Origin: Acidobacteriota bacterium
GTDB lineage: Bacteria; Acidobacteriota; Terriglobia; Terriglobales; Acidobacteriaceae
DNA length: 64,000 bases
Direction: 5' to 3'
Assembly: GCA_021779935.1 (NCBI GenBank)
Contig: JAJXZT010000064.1
Location: forward strand, 126,461 to 190,460
The translations under genes and the position numbers were made by a program. The number at the start of each line of letters is the position of its first letter. The first letter of the stretch is position 1. Shown here one piece after another: positions 2,048 to 32,907 of the stretch. The notes under the pieces are model-generated. The model was given only the letters and a program-made list of their open reading frames with translations. It did no database searches and was not told the origin of the DNA.

Positions 2048-3313
2048 ATGGAGCGTACGTACTTCCACGTCGATATGGACGCGTTTTTCGTGTCGGTGGA
2101 AGAGTTGTATGACCCGTCGCTGAAGGGCAAGCCGGTGGTGGTCGGCGGGAAGCCGAACGAGCGCGGTGTGGTGGCGGCAGCCTCGTATGCGGCGAGGAAG
2201 TTTGGCGTGCACTCGGCGATGCCACTGCGGACAGCGGCAAAGATGTGTCCGCAGGCAGTGTTCGTGGAAGGGCATCCGGAGAGGTACAGGGAATACTCGG
2301 GGCGTGTGCATACGGTGCTGGAGAAGTTTTCGCCGCTGGTGGAGATGGCATCGATCGACGAAGCGTACCTGGACATGACGGGGACGGAGCGCCTGCACGG
2401 GCCGGCGTTGCGCGCGGCGCATCTGCTGCATGAAACGATGAAGCGCGAGACAAACCTGAACTGCTCGATTGGAATTGCGGGGGCGCGCGTGGTGGCGAAA
2501 ATCTGCTCGGACCAGGCGAAACCGAACGGTGTGCTGTGGATTGTGCCGGGAGCGGAGGCGGCATTCCTGGCGCCGCTGGAGATTCGGCGGATGCCGGGCG
2601 TGGGTAAGGTTACAGAACAAAAGTTGCAGGAGATGGGCATTCGACTGGTGGGCGAGCTGGCGAAATGGGACGTAGAAAAAGTCCGCGAGGAGCTGGGCGA
2701 GTGGGCGGCGACACTGGCGGAAAAGGCTCGGGGGACGGACGCGGGCGGATGGTATGACACGGCAATCGGCGAGAACAGCGATGCGAAATCGATCAGCCAT
2801 GAACATACGTTTTCGCGCGACGAGGGCGATACACAGGCGCTGGAGTCGATGCTGGCGCGGCTGTCAGAGATGGTGTGCCGGAGATTGCGCGAACAGAAAT
2901 TGCACGCACGGAAGATCGAACTGAAGCTGAGGTTTGCGGACTTCACGACGATTACGCGCGGACGAACGGTGGAACATCCGACGCAACTCGATACGGAAGT
3001 GTTTGGCATCGTGCGAGAACTGTTTCGCGCGAACCGCAAGGCGGGAAGCATGATTCGGCTGCTGGGAGTGAAAGTGGCGTCGTTCGAAGACGCTCCGGCG
3101 GAACAGCTTGCCCTGCTGGACGCTGGGCGCGACGACAGGATGCGTACGGCGCTGACGACAATGGACAAGCTGCGGGATAAGTTCGGCGAGAACGCAGTGT
3201 CACTGGCGACAGGAATGAAGGCGCGGTTCCGCGAAAAGACACATGACAATCCGGCGGCGTTGCCGGGAAAGAAGAAGAGTCGCGAGTCACGAGACTCGGG
3301 TCACAAGAAATAA
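2048..3313 (+). CDS. dinB: DNA polymerase IV (Y-family translesion polymerase)
   Basis: Error-prone polymerase for bypass synthesis past damaged bases. The N-terminus has the Y-family palm motif YFHVDMDAFFVSVE (residues 4-17) and the catalytic SIDEAYLDMTG near residues 102-112, followed by the thumb helix-hairpin-helix (RRMPGVGKVTEQKLQ) and the little-finger domain. The length, 421 residues, is usual. I chose the ATG at 2048 because an AGAGGAA ribosome site lies 7 bases upstream; an in-frame ATG at 2012 has none and would add 12 unconserved residues. The last dozen residues are a Lys/Ser/Arg tail encoded by sequence of the same kind as the extragenic repeats nearby (AGTCACGAG, GTCACAAG). No LexA box is obvious. 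Confidence 0.95.
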   Translation: MERTYFHVDMDAFFVSVEELYDPSLKGKPVVVGGKPNERGVVAAASYAARKFGVHSAMPLRTAAKMCPQAVFVEGHPERYREYSGRVHTVLEKFSPLVEMASIDEAYLDMTGTERLHGPALRAAHLLHETMKRETNLNCSIGIAGARVVAKICSDQAKPNGVLWIVPGAEAAFLAPLEIRRMPGVGKVTEQKLQEMGIRLVGELAKWDVEKVREELGEWAATLAEKARGTDAGGWYDTAIGENSDAKSISHEHTFSRDEGDTQALESMLARLSEMVCRRLREQKLHARKIELKLRFADFTTITRGRTVEHPTQLDTEVFGIVRELFRANRKAGSMIRLLGVKVASFEDAPAEQLALLDAGRDDRMRTALTTMDKLRDKFGENAVSLATGMKARFREKTHDNPAALPGKKKSRESRDSGHKK

Positions 3314-3351
3314 GGACAGTTTCGAGTTTCAAGTTTCGAGTTTCGAGAAAG
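3277..3351. repeat. Extragenic repeat tract running into the dinB 3' end
   Basis: Two repeat types are adjacent. A GAGTCACGAG/GGTCACAAG-type tract covers the last codons of dinB (3277-3313). A tract built on GTTTCGA and GTTTCAA heptads then fills 3318-3351. The heptad tract recurs at 4836-4861, 6071-6086, 7481-7514 and 63761-63797, always between genes. Function unknown. Confidence 0.7.
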
Positions 3352-3367
3352 AACAAAATCAACTTCG

Positions 3368-4663
3368 TTACATGGGCAGGTCGCTGTTGGCCTTGATGGC
3401 GCGGGTCCAGACGAGCGCTTCGGAGTAAGCCTCCCAGGTGGTGGAATCCTTAAGATTCAGGTCGGCGCAAAGCTCGCGGAGGGCGGGCCAGTCGCCGCGT
3501 TCGCAGGCGACGGCGAGGCTTAGCGCCTGAGCGATGCGGTTGTCGCCTCCCTGGAGCGCGTCACGACAGGGCGCGGAGAGCGGCAGGCGCGAGAGCACGT
3601 TGGACATCGGCTGGTCGAGAATGGCGTCGATGAGCGAAAGCATACCGGCGAGGAAAAGATCAGTATCGTTCTCGCGGATTTCAGGGGCGAGGAGTTCGCA
3701 GAAGCGTCCGCGGGCGAGCGCGGTGACGAGGAGCTCCGAAGAACGGCGTCCGGCGAGCGTGACGGCGGCGACGATGGCGGTCCATTTGCGGATTTCATTC
3801 TGCCCAAGCATGGTCAAGGCGTGGCGAATGGAACGGATGGGGTAGACGCCAAAGGCGGCCGAGTTGAGATAACGGAGGAGACGATAACAAAGCGCGGGCT
3901 CCTGCTTGATGACGCGTTCGATGAAGACGACGTTGTACTCGGGCTCGAAGACGGTCTGCAGGATGCGCAGCACGTTCATCTGAAGGCATGGCAGGTCACG
4001 AGCCACGACGGTGACGGGCCGGCAGAAAAAATATCCCTGGAAATAGTGATAGCCCATGTCGAGAGCGGCCTTGAACTGGTCGTGGGTCTCGATTTTTTCG
4101 GCAACCATGGCGATGCCGCGGCGCGAATAATCGCGGGCGAGGCGCTCCTGTTGATCGGGCGTGGTGGTGCGGAAGTCGACCTTGATGATGTCGGCAAGAT
4201 CGGTGAGGGCGAGGCGCTGGTCGCCTCCCTCGAAATCGTCGAGCGCGAGAAGGTACCCGGCGCGACGGAGACGATGGCAGGCGTCGATGACCTGCTGGTC
4301 GGCGGGGACATCCTCGAGGATCTCAAGCACGGAAAGATCGCGCGGCAGGACGGTGACAAGCTCTTCGACAAGGAGGTTGCGCGTGCAATTGATGAAAGCG
4401 CGGCGGCCGTCGGTGAGGGAGTCAGTGCCGATGAGCAGCGAGGTGTCGATGGTGCTGCGAGTGGCTTCGTCGCCGTCGCCGGTCATGAACCAGGCGTCGG
4501 CACCGGCGCGGAAGAGAAGCTCGTAGCCGTAGACGCGCTCGTGGCGGTCGAGAATGGGCTGGCGCGCAACAAAGCGTACCTCACCGATTTCGCTGGTTTG
4601 GGGACCGCGGTCGGAGAGCAGCTCAAGGCGGACAGGCTGATTGGGTTCGGCGTGCAGACGCAT
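3368..4663 (-). CDS. EAL-HDOD (YuxH-type) signalling protein
   Basis: Two-domain protein of the YuxH group: an EAL domain (c-di-GMP phosphodiesterase fold) followed by an HDOD domain. EAL landmarks are YELLFR (the EAL signature itself), EILED, LALDDFEGG, IKVDF, AEKIET and FQGYFFCRP, so most metal- and substrate-binding acidic residues and the lysine are present; the usual DDFG has become DDFE. The HDOD part starts near residue 215 (LQMNVLRILQ) with the typical RLLRYLNSAAFG. I chose the ATG at 4663 (431 residues); the frame is open to 4789, but that extension is coded by low-complexity repeat sequence. Activity on c-di-GMP cannot be decided from sequence; these proteins may act by binding partners. 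Confidence 0.85.
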   Translation of the reverse strand: MRLHAEPNQPVRLELLSDRGPQTSEIGEVRFVARQPILDRHERVYGYELLFRAGADAWFMTGDGDEATRSTIDTSLLIGTDSLTDGRRAFINCTRNLLVEELVTVLPRDLSVLEILEDVPADQQVIDACHRLRRAGYLLALDDFEGGDQRLALTDLADIIKVDFRTTTPDQQERLARDYSRRGIAMVAEKIETHDQFKAALDMGYHYFQGYFFCRPVTVVARDLPCLQMNVLRILQTVFEPEYNVVFIERVIKQEPALCYRLLRYLNSAAFGVYPIRSIRHALTMLGQNEIRKWTAIVAAVTLAGRRSSELLVTALARGRFCELLAPEIRENDTDLFLAGMLSLIDAILDQPMSNVLSRLPLSAPCRDALQGGDNRIAQALSLAVACERGDWPALRELCADLNLKDSTTWEAYSEALVWTRAIKANSDLPM

Positions 4664-27935: not shown

Positions 27936-27971
27936 ATATTCATCTCAGCAAGACAGGTAAAATTGATCGAT

Positions 27972-28841
27972 ATGTCTCAATCTAATTCCATGCCGACGAC
28001 GCGGCATGAATTCCACACGGACGATGCGCGGCTGCGCACGATTCACGGCAAAGTGATGGCGGGAGAGTCGCTGACGCGGGAAGACGCCCTGGCGCTCTAC
28101 AAGACGACGGATATCCTGGCGCTGGGATGGATGGCGAATTCCGTTCGCGAGCGGATGCACGGCAACCGGACGACGTTTGGAGCGGCGGTGGAGTTGACGG
28201 CACATGCGGATGGCTGTGCGTGGTGCGGAGCGAAGAATCCGCGCGAGGCAGCGGAGGCCGCGGTAAAAAAACTGCCGGAGACGGGCACGGTGCAGATCGT
28301 GCTCGGCGGGCATCCGGAGATTGCGGAAGAAGCGATGGCGGGAGTGATGGAGGAACTGGCGCGGAAGAAACCGGGAGTCGCGGCGAGAGCGGTAGCGATC
28401 GGGAGCCAGTTGAGCTCGGACGAGAAGCGAGTGGAGTTCCTGCTGCAGGTAAGGGCGATGCAGGAAAGATTCAAATGTGTCGATGCATACGCGCCGAGAG
28501 TGATGCCGCGAATCGGCGTGGAGGGAGTGTTCTCTTCGACGGGAATGCAGGAGATGAAACATATTGCGGTGGCACGGCTGGTGCTGCATAACGTGGCACA
28601 TATCAGTGCGTCATGGGAGTTGCTGGCGATGAAGGTGGCGCAGATCGCGCTGCGCTTTGGAGCGGATGACGTGGAAAGCACGACGCTGCGGAGCAACCCG
28701 CTGGCGGAGTTCGGGCCGAAAAAGACATTCCGAGAGGAGTTGGTGCGCTTTGTGGAAGCTGCCGGCCGGGTGCCGGTTGAGCGGGGCGAAAGTTACGGTG
28801 CAATGGAATCGAAGGTAACTGCAGGAAGGTTACAGATTTAA
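27972..28841 (+). CDS. Degenerate MqnE (aminofutalosine synthase)-like protein
   Basis: A 289-residue homologue of MqnE, the radical-SAM aminofutalosine synthase. The N-terminus (GKVMAGESLTREDALALY, about residues 24-41) and C-terminus (IAVARLVLHNVAHISASWELLAMKVAQIALRFGADDVEST and AGRVPVER) match the family clearly. The CX3CX2C cluster motif after HGNR..F is reduced to GCAWCGA, so only two of the three iron-sulfur cysteines remain. About 75 residues of the central barrel between LGGHPE and EKRVEFLLQ are missing. The frame is intact and starts 37 bases after ubiA. Enzymatic radical-SAM chemistry is unlikely; it could be a retained non-catalytic paralogue. ATG at 27972 chosen over TTG at 27963. 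Confidence 0.75.
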   Translation: MSQSNSMPTTRHEFHTDDARLRTIHGKVMAGESLTREDALALYKTTDILALGWMANSVRERMHGNRTTFGAAVELTAHADGCAWCGAKNPREAAEAAVKKLPETGTVQIVLGGHPEIAEEAMAGVMEELARKKPGVAARAVAIGSQLSSDEKRVEFLLQVRAMQERFKCVDAYAPRVMPRIGVEGVFSSTGMQEMKHIAVARLVLHNVAHISASWELLAMKVAQIALRFGADDVESTTLRSNPLAEFGPKKTFREELVRFVEAAGRVPVERGESYGAMESKVTAGRLQI

Positions 28842-28917: not shown

Positions 28918-29136
28918 CAGCGATCAAGAGGGGATGGAAAAATATACCGATAGCGGCCGGGGCGACGGACTCTGAAAAAACGGGTTGGGTGCGGGAGGGG
29001 CAATTGGCATGCCGTGAAAATGAATGGGGCGAGGCAACCGCCCATTTAGTAGTTGCTTCCGAGTAGTCAGGTGTAGAATGCGACGCAAGAGGAACGTACT
29101 GCAAGGTGCATCGGTTGTAGTGTCCGAGGCTCGAGC
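28918..29136 (+). promoter_or_regulatory. Upstream region of the HPF-sigma gene
   Basis: No gene in 219 bases. TAGAAT at 29074-29079 is a fair -10 box with a weak AGTTGC 17 bases upstream. A 58-base leader would follow. Confidence 0.3.
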
Positions 29137-30180
29137 ATGAACGTCCATATTACCTACAAACTCTCTAAAACTTCCGACGTAGAACAAGCAATCCAACAAC
29201 AAGTAGAGAAGCTGCGTAAACGGCTGCACGTGTTCAAGCCGGACATGGTGTCGCTGCATGGCACGGTTGAGGAGGGCAACAAGCGGGGATTCATCGTCTC
29301 GCTGAACCTCCGGTTGCCAACTGGGCAGATTGCGGCACGAAGTTCGACGGAGACACTGGCGCCGGCGATCAAGAGCAGCTTCGACGACCTGATCGAGCAG
29401 GTGACGAAACACAAGGATCACCTGCGAAACCATCACAAGTGGCCACGGAACAAACGGATGGAGCGCGGACGCTACCAATCGCAGGTTCCGTTTGAGAAAA
29501 CGCTGGCGGCGGTGCAGACGCCGACGATCTCGGAAGACGATATTACTGGATTCGTAAATGTAAATCTACAAAAGCTGGAACGATTCGTGTCGAACGAGTT
29601 GCGATTCCGCATCAGCAGCGGACAGCCGAACCTGGAAAGAATCGCGACGGAAGAAGTGATCGACGAAGTAATTGCGAATGCACTGGACGATAGAAAGGAG
29701 CGTCCGGAGAAAGTGGCGCTGGAGCCGTGGCTCTACAGGCTGGCGCGCAGGGCAATGGACCGGTTGGCGAACCAGAGCCGTCCCGAGGCCCCGTCGATTT
29801 CGGTGAACCTGCTGGTGCCACGAGAAAAGGATGACGGACACGATGAGGTAATCCAGGAGTATGACCAGCCGGATGAAATGCTGACCAACGAAAACCTGAT
29901 CGCAGACGGACGCACGGCGACGCCGGAAGACATTGCCTCCAATGATGAAGTGGTGGCGATGGTGGACGCGGCGCTGCTCCATACGCGGCACGAAGACAGG
30001 GAAGCATTCATCCTGAACACGATGGAAGGTTTTACGGTGCAGGAAATCGGGGCGATCACAGAGCGTCCCGAACAGGAGGTGAGAGAGTCAATCCGCAGAG
30101 CGAGAGAACATCTGCGGAAGGTGATTCCAGTCCCGGACAACATGAAGAACAAATCGACAGTACGGTCGGAATCTGCGTGA
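29137..30180 (+). CDS. Ribosome hibernation factor domain fused to a sigma-factor-like module
   Basis: An unusual 347-residue fusion. Residues 1-105 resemble HPF/RaiA, which binds the small ribosomal subunit in resting cells (MNVHITYKLSKTSDVEQAIQ ... VSLNLRLPTGQIAARSSTE). Residues about 125-215 resemble ECF sigma region 2, including EPWLYRLARRAMDRLANQ. Residues about 280-335 resemble sigma region 4, DREAFILNTMEGFTVQEIGAITERPEQEVRESIRRAREHLRK. A acidic linker separates the two sigma parts. The protein might link ribosome state to transcription, or the sigma-like part may be structural only. The next gene, 43 bases on, encodes an eRF1-like protein, supporting a translation-stress role. The start follows GAGG. 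Confidence 0.8.
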   Translation: MNVHITYKLSKTSDVEQAIQQQVEKLRKRLHVFKPDMVSLHGTVEEGNKRGFIVSLNLRLPTGQIAARSSTETLAPAIKSSFDDLIEQVTKHKDHLRNHHKWPRNKRMERGRYQSQVPFEKTLAAVQTPTISEDDITGFVNVNLQKLERFVSNELRFRISSGQPNLERIATEEVIDEVIANALDDRKERPEKVALEPWLYRLARRAMDRLANQSRPEAPSISVNLLVPREKDDGHDEVIQEYDQPDEMLTNENLIADGRTATPEDIASNDEVVAMVDAALLHTRHEDREAFILNTMEGFTVQEIGAITERPEQEVRESIRRAREHLRKVIPVPDNMKNKSTVRSESA

Positions 30181-30223
30181 AGCATTTTGTAATCGAACAG
30201 CATTTCACGATTGAGAGGTGTTC

Positions 30224-31390
30224 ATGATCACTCGAGAAGCAATCCGCGAATTGGCCGAATACGAATCTCCACATGGATGCGCGCTGACGTTCTACTACCA
30301 GCCGACAGCGCCGAAAGACCAGTCACATCGCGAGGAAGCGATTGTATTGAAGGACGTAGTGCGAGGGGCGATGCGCGAAGCAGAGAAGCAGGGACGCAAC
30401 GAATGCGCGCGCGCCGACCTGAAACGCATACTCGAGATGGCTGACAAGATCCAGAAAAACGGAGGCAGAGCGAAGGCAATATTCGCGGACTCATCAACCG
30501 GCTTCTGGCGGGAGTTCGACCTGCCGGCGAAGCTGGAAGGGACAAAATTGATCGTGAACCGGCGATTCCACCTGAAGCACATGGCACCGGTGCTGGAGTG
30601 GAAGCCGCGGGTGATGGCATGCCTGGTGGACCGTTCGCGGGCACGGCTCTTCCGATACGAGAACGACACGGTGGAGGAAGTTGTGGGCTTCCATCATGAA
30701 TTGCCGCGGCTCGGAGAGAGCGACGGATTCCTGGGCTATGACGCCGGGCACAATGAACGTCACGTGGCGGAAGCGGCAAAGCAGCATTACAAGGCGGTGG
30801 CCGATGCGCTGCGAAAGATGTATGAGCGCGACGCGTGGGAGTCGCTGGCGGTGGGATGCCGCGAAGAAACGTGGCCGGAGTTTGAAGGGGTGATGCATCG
30901 CTACCTGCGGGAGAACCTGCTGGGCCGCTTCCGGATCGATCCGGTGGCGGCGAACGGCGATGCCGTGCGCGACGGAATAAGAAAGCTGTTGCGCGAGCAG
31001 GAGACGATGCGTCGCGACGACCTGGTGAGGGAAGTGATTGGAGAGGCGCACCGAAACGGACGTGGAGCAATCGGACTGCGGCGCGTGCTGCGGTCGCTGC
31101 AAAACGGCGAGGTGCAGACGCTGTTGATCGGCGACCGGTTCGACGCACCGGGAACGCAGTGCGGTCATTGCCGGCACGTTGACCTGAAGATGTCCGCGAT
31201 ATGCGCGGCCTGCGGGCAGAAGACGGTCGAGATGGATGACATCGCGGATGCAATCATCGGCAACGCGCTGAAGAACAGCATCGGCGTGGTCTACGTGAAG
31301 GGCGATGTGAAACTGGAAAAAGCCGGAAACATCGCAGCGCTACTGCGCTTCCGCGCCGACCAGAACACGGCCGTGAGGCAAGCGTCCTAG
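30224..31390 (+). CDS. Bacterial eRF1-like (baeRF) protein
   Basis: A 388-residue protein of the bacterial archaeo-eukaryotic release-factor-like class. Landmarks are the central domain VMACLVDRSRARLFRYENDTVEEVVGFHHELPRLGESDGFLGYDAGHNERHVAEAAKQHYKAVADAL in order, and a C-terminal L7Ae-like domain with a zinc pair CGHC...CAACG and SIGVVYVKGD. The position where eRF1 carries GGQ has GYDAGHNERH instead, so peptide release by the GGQ mechanism is not expected. Its family is known to occur with hibernation factors; here an HPF-fusion gene precedes it. ATG at 30224 has AGAGG upstream. A strong terminator follows. Confidence 0.75.
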   Translation: MITREAIRELAEYESPHGCALTFYYQPTAPKDQSHREEAIVLKDVVRGAMREAEKQGRNECARADLKRILEMADKIQKNGGRAKAIFADSSTGFWREFDLPAKLEGTKLIVNRRFHLKHMAPVLEWKPRVMACLVDRSRARLFRYENDTVEEVVGFHHELPRLGESDGFLGYDAGHNERHVAEAAKQHYKAVADALRKMYERDAWESLAVGCREETWPEFEGVMHRYLRENLLGRFRIDPVAANGDAVRDGIRKLLREQETMRRDDLVREVIGEAHRNGRGAIGLRRVLRSLQNGEVQTLLIGDRFDAPGTQCGHCRHVDLKMSAICAACGQKTVEMDDIADAIIGNALKNSIGVVYVKGDVKLEKAGNIAALLRFRADQNTAVRQAS

Positions 31391-32184: not shown

Positions 32185-32226
32185 TATAAATATCGTTGAA
32201 GTGGGTTACGACAGGAGTTGGAGAGC

Positions 32227-32907
32227 ATGTTTATTCCGACAGAAGCTGCAAAACTACATTCCTTCTTCTCGTCGATGACCGAGTTTTCGGTGGTGGCGTT
32301 TACATCGGTCTTCTTCCTGGTGGATCCATTTGCGGCGATTCCGGCATTCCTGGTGATGACGGTGGATGCAGACGCGGTGGGACGTCGCAGGATGGCGAAG
32401 CGCGCGGCATGGACGTGCTTCATCGTGTTGAGCGCGTTTGCGGCGGCGGGTTCGCTGATCTTCAAGATGTTTGGTATCACGCTGCCCGCGTTTGAAATTG
32501 CCGGAGGACTGATCCTGCTGCTGATTGGACTGGAGATGCTTCAGGCAAAGCGCTCGACGCAGGAAGGCCCGAGCGAAACCGAAGAGGGCGCGCACAAGGA
32601 AGACGTTGGCATCACGCCGCTGGGGATTCCTCTGCTGGCGGGGCCGGGCGCGATTTCGACGGTGATGGTGCTGATGGGCGCATCTCCGACGTGGGCGCAT
32701 GTGATCCCGATCTACGTGGCAATCGCAGTGACTGCGCTTGCGAGCTACTGGGTGCTGGCATCGGCGGACAAGGTGCGGAAACGCATAGGCGACACGGGCA
32801 TTCGCATCATGATGCGAATCATGGGATTGCTGCTGACGGCAATTGCGATTCAGTTTGTACTGAACGGGTTGGCGCTGATTGGGTTGGTGAATTTGAGCGG
32901 GCAGTAG
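32227..32907 (+). CDS. MarC family membrane protein
   Basis: Inner-membrane protein of 226 residues with six hydrophobic segments. The family hallmarks are FFLVDPFAAIPAFLVMT near residue 35 and TPLGIPLLAGPGAISTVMVLM near residue 130. A charged cytoplasmic loop (QAKRSTQEGPSETEEGAHKED) separates the two halves. MarC proteins are widespread but have no settled function; the early link to multidrug resistance was not confirmed. ATG at 32227 follows AGGAG and GGAGAG. Confidence 0.9.
   Translation: MFIPTEAAKLHSFFSSMTEFSVVAFTSVFFLVDPFAAIPAFLVMTVDADAVGRRRMAKRAAWTCFIVLSAFAAAGSLIFKMFGITLPAFEIAGGLILLLIGLEMLQAKRSTQEGPSETEEGAHKEDVGITPLGIPLLAGPGAISTVMVLMGASPTWAHVIPIYVAIAVTALASYWVLASADKVRKRIGDTGIRIMMRIMGLLLTAIAIQFVLNGLALIGLVNLSGQ

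Follow-up and report, generated by a model that had tools for sequence, protein, structure and literature searches.

Organization of the locus

The window, a stretch of 64,000 nucleotides from an acidobacterial contig, carries a gene in which a domain of the hibernation-promoting factor HPF/RaiA is joined to a long sigma-like tail, followed by a gene for a Balon-like ribosome hibernation factor (Table 1). In the Pfam scan, the N-terminal part matches Ribosomal_S30AE (PF02482; residues 9-96, E 1e-8, 36.2 bits, cut-off 23.7), and the C-terminal part matches Sigma70_r4_2 (PF08281; residues 286-326, E 4e-7, 30.0 bits, cut-off 25.7) as well as PhyR_sigma-like (PF22233; residues 287-324, E 1.1e-6, 28.7 bits, cut-off 27). 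The NCBIfam model TIGR02937 for sigma70-ECF proteins spans residues 161-328 with a score just over its cut-off (43.7 and 42.9 bits), Sigma70_r2 falls under its own at residues 171-214 (E 0.015, 15.5 bits, cut-off 24), and two further NCBIfam models score below threshold, yfiA TIGR00741 (27.4 bits, cut-off 40.9) and, far below, the PhyR model NF006623 (30.7, cut-off 240). Neither PF16321, the C-terminal domain of long HPFs, nor a receiver (response regulator) domain was matched in the fusion by Pfam. The preliminary description of this DNA had read an HPF/RaiA-like domain and sigma regions 2 and 4 into one intact frame; profile searches and the predicted folds described below bear out both halves, region 2 being weak in the profiles and recognizable as a predicted fold. 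A chance or assembly fusion can be dismissed because the identical joint occurs in many genomes.

Table 1. Coordinates of the fusion gene, its parts and the flanking features in the window
Feature	Position	Strand	Basis or remark
HPF-sigma-mimic fusion gene	29137..30180	+	single intact frame, 347 aa
HPF/RaiA (S30AE) domain, residues 1-105	29137..29451	+	PF02482, RaiA fold match, net charge +8
sigma2-like region, residues 132-215, Asp176 at ECF Gln position	29530..29781	+	TIGR02937, AF2, alignment
YDQPDE motif, residues 242-247, sigma2-sigma4 linker	29860..29877	+	alignment of 26 members
sigma4-like helix-turn-helix, residues 263-331	29923..30129	+	PF08281 4e-7, PF22233 1.1e-6
-10-like element GTGTAGAAT, pattern GTGTAn[AG]AT	29071..29079	+	starts 66 nt before start codon
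CCGAGG, putative ribosome-binding site	29124..29129	+	GAGG kept in at least 90% of 30 leaders; role inferred from position
Balon-like ribosome hibernation factor (baeRF family 10)	30218..31390	+	37 nt downstream of fusion; PF18854

Distribution and conservation of the fusion

The survey of acidobacterial genomes called for in the preliminary description found that the architecture recurs across the Acidobacteriota and on proteobacterial plasmids; outside the phylum it covered plasmid records and E. coli records. Of 396 genomes of the phylum, 24 encode the fusion protein according to a single-sequence search. A family profile matched these 24 strongly, the protein being a fragment or in pieces in three cases among the matches listed. 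Raw profile matches are near-universal (392/396 phylum genomes, 298/298 genomes of the window's own order) since the C-terminal half is also recognized in ordinary sigma factors; the count, made by hand, was restricted to matches that extend into both halves. Among the matches listed, which run down into far weaker scores, such a match is present in 109 of the 298 order genomes, a number that includes one genome with two pieces of one frame (G520) and a few proteins incomplete at an end; three additional genomes (G408, G622 and G562) hold fragments only. Members are 21-51% identical to the window protein and can be aligned with it end to end. Both parts align in unchanged order in 26 representatives, in which M1, L85, D176, P245, P263, R288 and A322 are invariant. 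The linker motif QPDE is found in most fusions, with Q244 and D246 kept in at least 90% of these 26 beside the invariant P245, and has diverged in members of f88, another family of the order. Stand-alone S30AE ORFs of ~100 residues, close in sequence to the HPF domain of the fusion and without a tail, occur in genomes of one genus (L184:2358-2657 (-), L185:2345-2656 (+) and L186:2585-2884 (+)).

Upstream region and gene neighborhood

The pattern GTGTAn[AG]AT, which was derived from the very sequences scored, is found within 130 nt upstream of the gene at 38 of 40 loci of the order, compared with 0.4% of mononucleotide-shuffled upstream regions. At the same number of loci (38/40) the TAnAAT element, with GTG before it, lies 59-78 nt upstream of the start codon, and one ECF-like promoter pattern was found in just one of the 40 upstream regions. 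Together, these counts argue against ECF autoregulation, which we reject for the one pattern type searched, and for a promoter of the housekeeping type. The leader between the -10-like element and GAGG was compared for the window (29080-29130) and 30 loci: an inverted pair, CACGGG...CCCG in many leaders and CACAGG...CCTGTG in others, is visible by eye and absent from the window, and RNAalifold returned no consensus pair for 18 leaders.

The gene next to the fusion matches PF18854 over its cut-off (E 6.7e-16, 59.3 bits) and NF052287 far under its cut-off of 330 (E 1.6e-15, 57.4 bits). Adjacency was judged on the 30 loci of the order with the best scores (109 of its genomes have the fusion): of the 29 with downstream sequence, 27 have a Balon-like gene directly after the fusion, one of these being cut off by a contig end; one exception (G210) has a different gene, the other (G476, locus L146) a frame-broken Balon-like piece, and L150 has no downstream sequence. 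The piece in L146 (1-319 (-)), a Balon-like start that follows the fusion at the contig end, could reflect real decay or an assembly error. A separate set of ten named loci contains six full Balon-like genes and one partial gene, with none in L027 and L028, while L029 ends too early. According to the available part of PMC10901736, Balon binds ribosomes together with RaiA, its most frequent gene neighbor, and the other neighbors given there include alternative sigma70 factors; that part of the source mentions no fusion, whereas here the neighbor is one fused protein. MarC is also among the Balon neighbors listed there (PMC10901736), and a MarC family membrane protein is encoded in the window two genes past the Balon-like gene, at 32218-32907 (+).

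In other Acidobacteriota the neighbors vary. L045 has the order FtsH, fusion, Balon and then a 739-aa frame (L045:2542-4758 (-)) that combines a phosphoglycerate kinase domain with one of the universal stress protein type. A STAS gene lies near the fusion in L054, where Hsp20 then comes, and in L058; no stress gene was present among the few neighbors scanned in L053 and L048. An aminotransferase gene is downstream in all five loci scanned for it (L047, L049, L050, L055 and L057). A gene with OB and HD domains, which we take to be YhaM-like, is upstream in four of six (L049, L050, L052 and L057; not L047 or L055). YhaM trims hpf mRNA in S. aureus, as reported in the available text of PMC11347170. 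The Pfam-scanned neighbors of fusion loci include no anti-sigma factor, several small ones having no match of any kind, and no gene related to RNA polymerase was recognized among the neighbors scanned. A search for NepR gave no match in the window's own genome and was positive in the Caulobacter control. Upstream of the fusion, an MqnC/CofH-like gene (window 27963-28841 (+)) has no detectable radical SAM domain, which is present in three relatives found upstream of fusions; the ends of this 292-aa frame align with its relative in L028 (384 aa), leaving L028 residues ~153-224 unmatched.

Predicted structure

The structure prediction proposed in the preliminary description yielded an HPF fold and a tail resembling sigma2 and sigma4. 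The AlphaFold2 models were built from 10 sequences each; in the full-length model (pTM 0.31, linker pLDDT < 50), residues 1-90 adopt the HPF fold with a block pLDDT of 76-88 and the sigma4 fold is also formed, and when the tail (residues 118-347) is modeled alone, the sigma2-like region reaches a pLDDT of mostly 77-89. Foldseek matched the full model to the HPF 4hei_A (E 2.8e-6) and to sigmaH 6jcx_F (E 1.9e-5), and the tail model alone most closely to a sigma factor (E 5.6e-4). In VIA-align, the best N-terminal match superimposes residues 1-101 on RaiA from the Balon/RaiA ribosome structure (8rd8_D; Z 15.7, rmsd 1.4 over 97 residues), and residues 263-337 align with region 4 of sigmaE (1or7_B; Z 10.2, rmsd 3.8, 71 residues). 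The best matches for the whole tail are EcfG/RpoE bound to NepR (5uxx_C; Z 10.0, rmsd 4.8, 151 residues) and the PhyR-NepR complex (2lfw; Z 9.7, rmsd 9.6, 146 residues), both within Z 1 of several ECF sigmas; Z values of ~10 for helical folds are middling by the aligner's own scale.

A sigma fold with degenerate contacts

To compare the tail with bona fide sigma factors, we aligned 50 fusion members (the 26 representatives and 24 further order loci) with 19 ECF sigmas of related genomes, taken from 30 loci after 11 RpoD-like loci (matches of ~675 bases) were left out. The region 2.2 Gln, present in 19/19 controls, is replaced in all 50 fusions, by Asp in 48 and by Asn in 2. The mean net charge is +0.86 in fusions versus +3.95 in controls for region 2.4, and +0.62 versus +3.11 for the 4.2 helix, in which an Arg found in 19/19 controls is kept in 3/50 fusions. 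Test values for these contrasts are not independent because the 50 members are related to each other. An earlier comparison with controls from the window's own genome (19 of 24 found, some of them not ECF, used for the helix; only 6 covered region 2) points in the same direction. Across the family, the residues through which ECF factors contact core and promoter (the 2.2 Gln and the basic 2.4 and 4.2 helices) are largely lost. The window's own fusion is among the less degenerate, with region 2.4 at net +4 and the recognition helix at +2, and some binding to DNA or core may have survived for this reason.

As judged from these alignments, the sigma part is a retained fold that has lost much of its promoter-contact chemistry. 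The tail therefore probably does not direct promoter recognition, a reading that follows from the loss of DNA contacts, and the label "sigma factor" is probably wrong for the fusion. A genuine ECF sigma factor with the HPF domain as its regulator, sequestered by idle ribosomes until its release turns on a regulon, would account for the TIGR02937 score, the fold matches to ECF sigmas and the residual positive charge of the window's DNA-contact regions; we consider it improbable given the family-wide loss of that charge and of the region 2.2 Gln, the subthreshold Sigma70_r2 match and upstream regions in which the one ECF-like pattern searched gave no sign of autoregulation. The preliminary description had suggested that a sigma part held on hibernating ribosomes could report ribosome status to transcription. 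A link between ribosomes and transcription is conceivable on the present data, but a promoter-directing sigma factor is not its likeliest form because the contact positions are degenerate and the operon promoter is housekeeping-like.

The tail could instead bind core RNA polymerase through an acidic sigma2 domain that does not open promoters, and so tether or park the enzyme on hibernating ribosomes or compete with sigma factors. Region 2.2 is more acidic in the fusions than in the controls (mean net charge -3.2 versus -1.6), and core binding may persist since this acidity is kept or increased; the sigma2 fold is predicted with fair confidence, the linker carries a conserved acidic motif, and an acidic DAED motif forms a core contact in ECFs, according to the available part of PMC8103513. 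Yet the Gln-to-Asp change affects the same region, the acidic pair ahead of that position is missing in some members, and the scanned neighborhoods offer no polymerase-related gene, so that we regard a polymerase tether as rather unlikely.

A precedent for a sigma fold turned to another use is PhyR, the anti-anti-sigma factor of Alphaproteobacteria, which likewise contains a degenerate sigma2/sigma4 module with the fold kept and one of whose models, PF22233, passes its cut-off with the fusion, while NF006623 stays far below. The available text of PMC8103513 describes PhyR as having the right fold with degenerate promoter and core contacts. PhyR combines this module with a receiver domain and has NepR as its partner, whereas the fusion has an HPF domain and its genome lacks NepR; the absence of NepR leads us to reject the PhyR/NepR pathway as such. 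Sigma factors with extra domains share with the fusion a sigma2-sigma4 core to which a domain has been added, and differ from it in that the contact residues of the fusion are degenerate; the main text of a review of such proteins contains neither "ribosom" nor "hibernation".

Three genomes that encode the fusion also encode relatives of the tail without an HPF domain (L181:481-1575 (-), L182:1477-2298 (+) and L183:965-1753 (-)). All three have Asp in region 2.2 (LDEV/LDDV) and lie directly downstream of an Hsp70 gene, with a small ORF possibly between in two. Their existence at these sites suggests that the tail module has a job apart from HPF and also works without it.

The HPF half

HPF/RaiA/YfiA, long HPF and the fusion have in common an N-terminal S30AE domain, its predicted fold and a similar net positive charge. 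Over aligned columns, the net charge of the domain ranges from +3 to +14 among 26 fusions, compared with +8 to +11 for 12 canonical HPFs from relatives, and the position of K91 is basic in 96% of the fusions and 100% of the canonical proteins. Fusions do not keep several other basic positions: those at 16, 61, 95, 100 and 101 of the window protein are basic in 83-100% of canonical HPFs versus 4-35% of fusions. In f88, the sole S30AE match at E <= 0.001 coincides with the fusion coordinates in 8/8 genomes examined, which are 89-98% complete; the fusion is thus the only HPF found there. The HPF half is probably functional. We further think it quite probable that the fusion binds ribosomes, as family membership, fold, charge and gene company would predict, an estimate that we lowered slightly because several canonical basic positions are lost. 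The window's own genome also encodes a canonical long HPF with PF16321, whose gene adjoins that for sigma-54 and lies near the RapZ gene (L188:1233-1856, 2128-3501 and 135-1088, all (-)).

Where long HPF has the PF16321 domain, the fusion has its 230-residue sigma-like tail, and the tail could have been reused simply as a ribosome-binding or dimerization domain with no role in transcription. Its position, the occurrence of PF16321 in the canonical HPF of the same genome and not in the fusion, the f88 genomes in which the fusion provides the only S30AE match, and the partnership of RaiA with Balon in the available account (PMC10901736) all fit such a role; the HPF-less tail relatives downstream of Hsp70 genes do not, and we judge it unlikely. 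Among the three alternatives, this plain ribosome-binding tail ranks first, followed by the polymerase tether and then by a true sigma factor.

Plasmid relatives and orf11 of the heat-resistance island

A protein search found a relative of the fusion in 21 of 72,556 plasmid records. The relatives are annotated "sigma-70", "sigma-28" or "FliA", which is probably misleading. Seven of nine plasmid regions that we opened have stress genes within 7 kb, coding for Hsp20, an AAA (Clp-like) ATPase, FtsH, HdeD, YfdX or a chaperone; of the remaining two, one has no gene table and a predicted yfdX1, and in the other (L071) the relative is annotated as two frames, a transposase is nearby and no stress gene appears. 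In locus L069, the PhyR model PF22029 scores under its cut-off. The relatives in Pseudomonas fragi and E. coli G3/10 are flanked by hdeD (DUF308) and trx, a location that corresponds to orf11 of the heat-resistance island, whose hdeD/orf11/trx gene order is given in the available part of PMC8290217. On islands of Klebsiella, Enterobacter, Acinetobacter and E. coli, orf11 is annotated "hypothetical protein".

The tLST/LHR orf11 product is a full-length homolog of the acidobacterial fusion, but a far diverged one. An HMM of 20 acidobacterial members matches E. coli orf11 with an E value of 4.7e-38, and with 1.7e-6 and 3.2e-26 for its N and C halves, compared with 0.024 (full), 0.059 (N half) and 0.012 (C half) for the best of 2,000 shuffled sequences. 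The P. fragi copy, near-identical to orf11, yields S30AE at only E 0.06 and no sigma match in Pfam, and NCBIfam gave no match to the orf11 copy up to 0.01; orf11 may have stayed unnamed owing to these weak matches. Of the 72,556 plasmid records, 303 contain its relatives, which in 263 cover 80% or more of the orf11 length; among them are 127 in Klebsiella, 74 in Enterobacter, 32 in Acinetobacter and 31 in Escherichia. Megablast, which finds near copies only, detected orf11 in 15 of 5,426 E. coli genomes, 4 at full length. In a tLST2 island of E. coli (L073:4456-7560), two genes, one for a mechanosensitive channel and one hypothetical, interrupt the orf11 relative, an interruption in the second island type that was reported earlier (available part of PMC5383660). 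No Balon gene is annotated in the 19 kb shown around orf11. Published data on orf11 do not point to a function in heat resistance or in hibernation. The accessible portion of PMC8290217 states that the module discussed with orf11 is needed for resistance to chlorine, not to heat or pressure, and that of PMC8407380 that orf11 deletion left membrane-lipid oxidation unchanged.

A proposed sigma mimic on hibernating ribosomes

We propose that the fusion acts as a hibernation factor in times of stress and that its tail is a PhyR-like sigma mimic used for protein binding, a model to which we give an even chance. The HPF domain would dock on the 30S subunit of idle ribosomes, as its fold, charge and gene company imply, and the sigma mimic would take the place of the usual C-terminal domain of a hibernation factor. 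Having kept the sigma2/sigma4 fold and lost most DNA contacts, the tail would not direct RNA polymerase to promoters and would serve instead as a protein-binding module, most plausibly by PhyR-like capture of an anti-sigma factor that partners a genuine sigma factor; stress transcription could then be tuned during ribosome hibernation. That the tail works specifically by binding an anti-sigma, a proposal made by analogy with PhyR, is tentative, possible rather than probable. More doubtful is a direct switch, in which HPF docking exposes or hides the tail, which then captures anti-sigma or RNA polymerase, so that stress transcription would depend on how many ribosomes are idle, with a diverged version of the module traveling on islands as orf11.

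HPF fusions are now seen to extend beyond long HPF and the archaeal HibA. HibA joins HPF/RaiA to CBS, with HPF C-terminal and CBS N-terminal (PMC13324472, available part), whereas the present fusion is bacterial and has HPF at its N terminus; the HibA authors also surveyed domains fused to bacterial HPF, and the available text names no sigma-like one (PMC13324472). A literature search, with subscription journals and supplements largely outside its scope, found no description of an HPF-sigma fusion. The archaeal HPF-CBS fusion is already known; the fusion reported here appears not to have been described before.

For orf11, which belongs to a mobile stress-tolerance island and is frequent on clinical and environmental plasmids, the relationship provides a first testable idea. 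More broadly, a widespread, unnamed family joins translation shutdown to a sigma-shaped module, and the fusion may supply a connection, missing until now, between dormant ribosomes and the control of stress.
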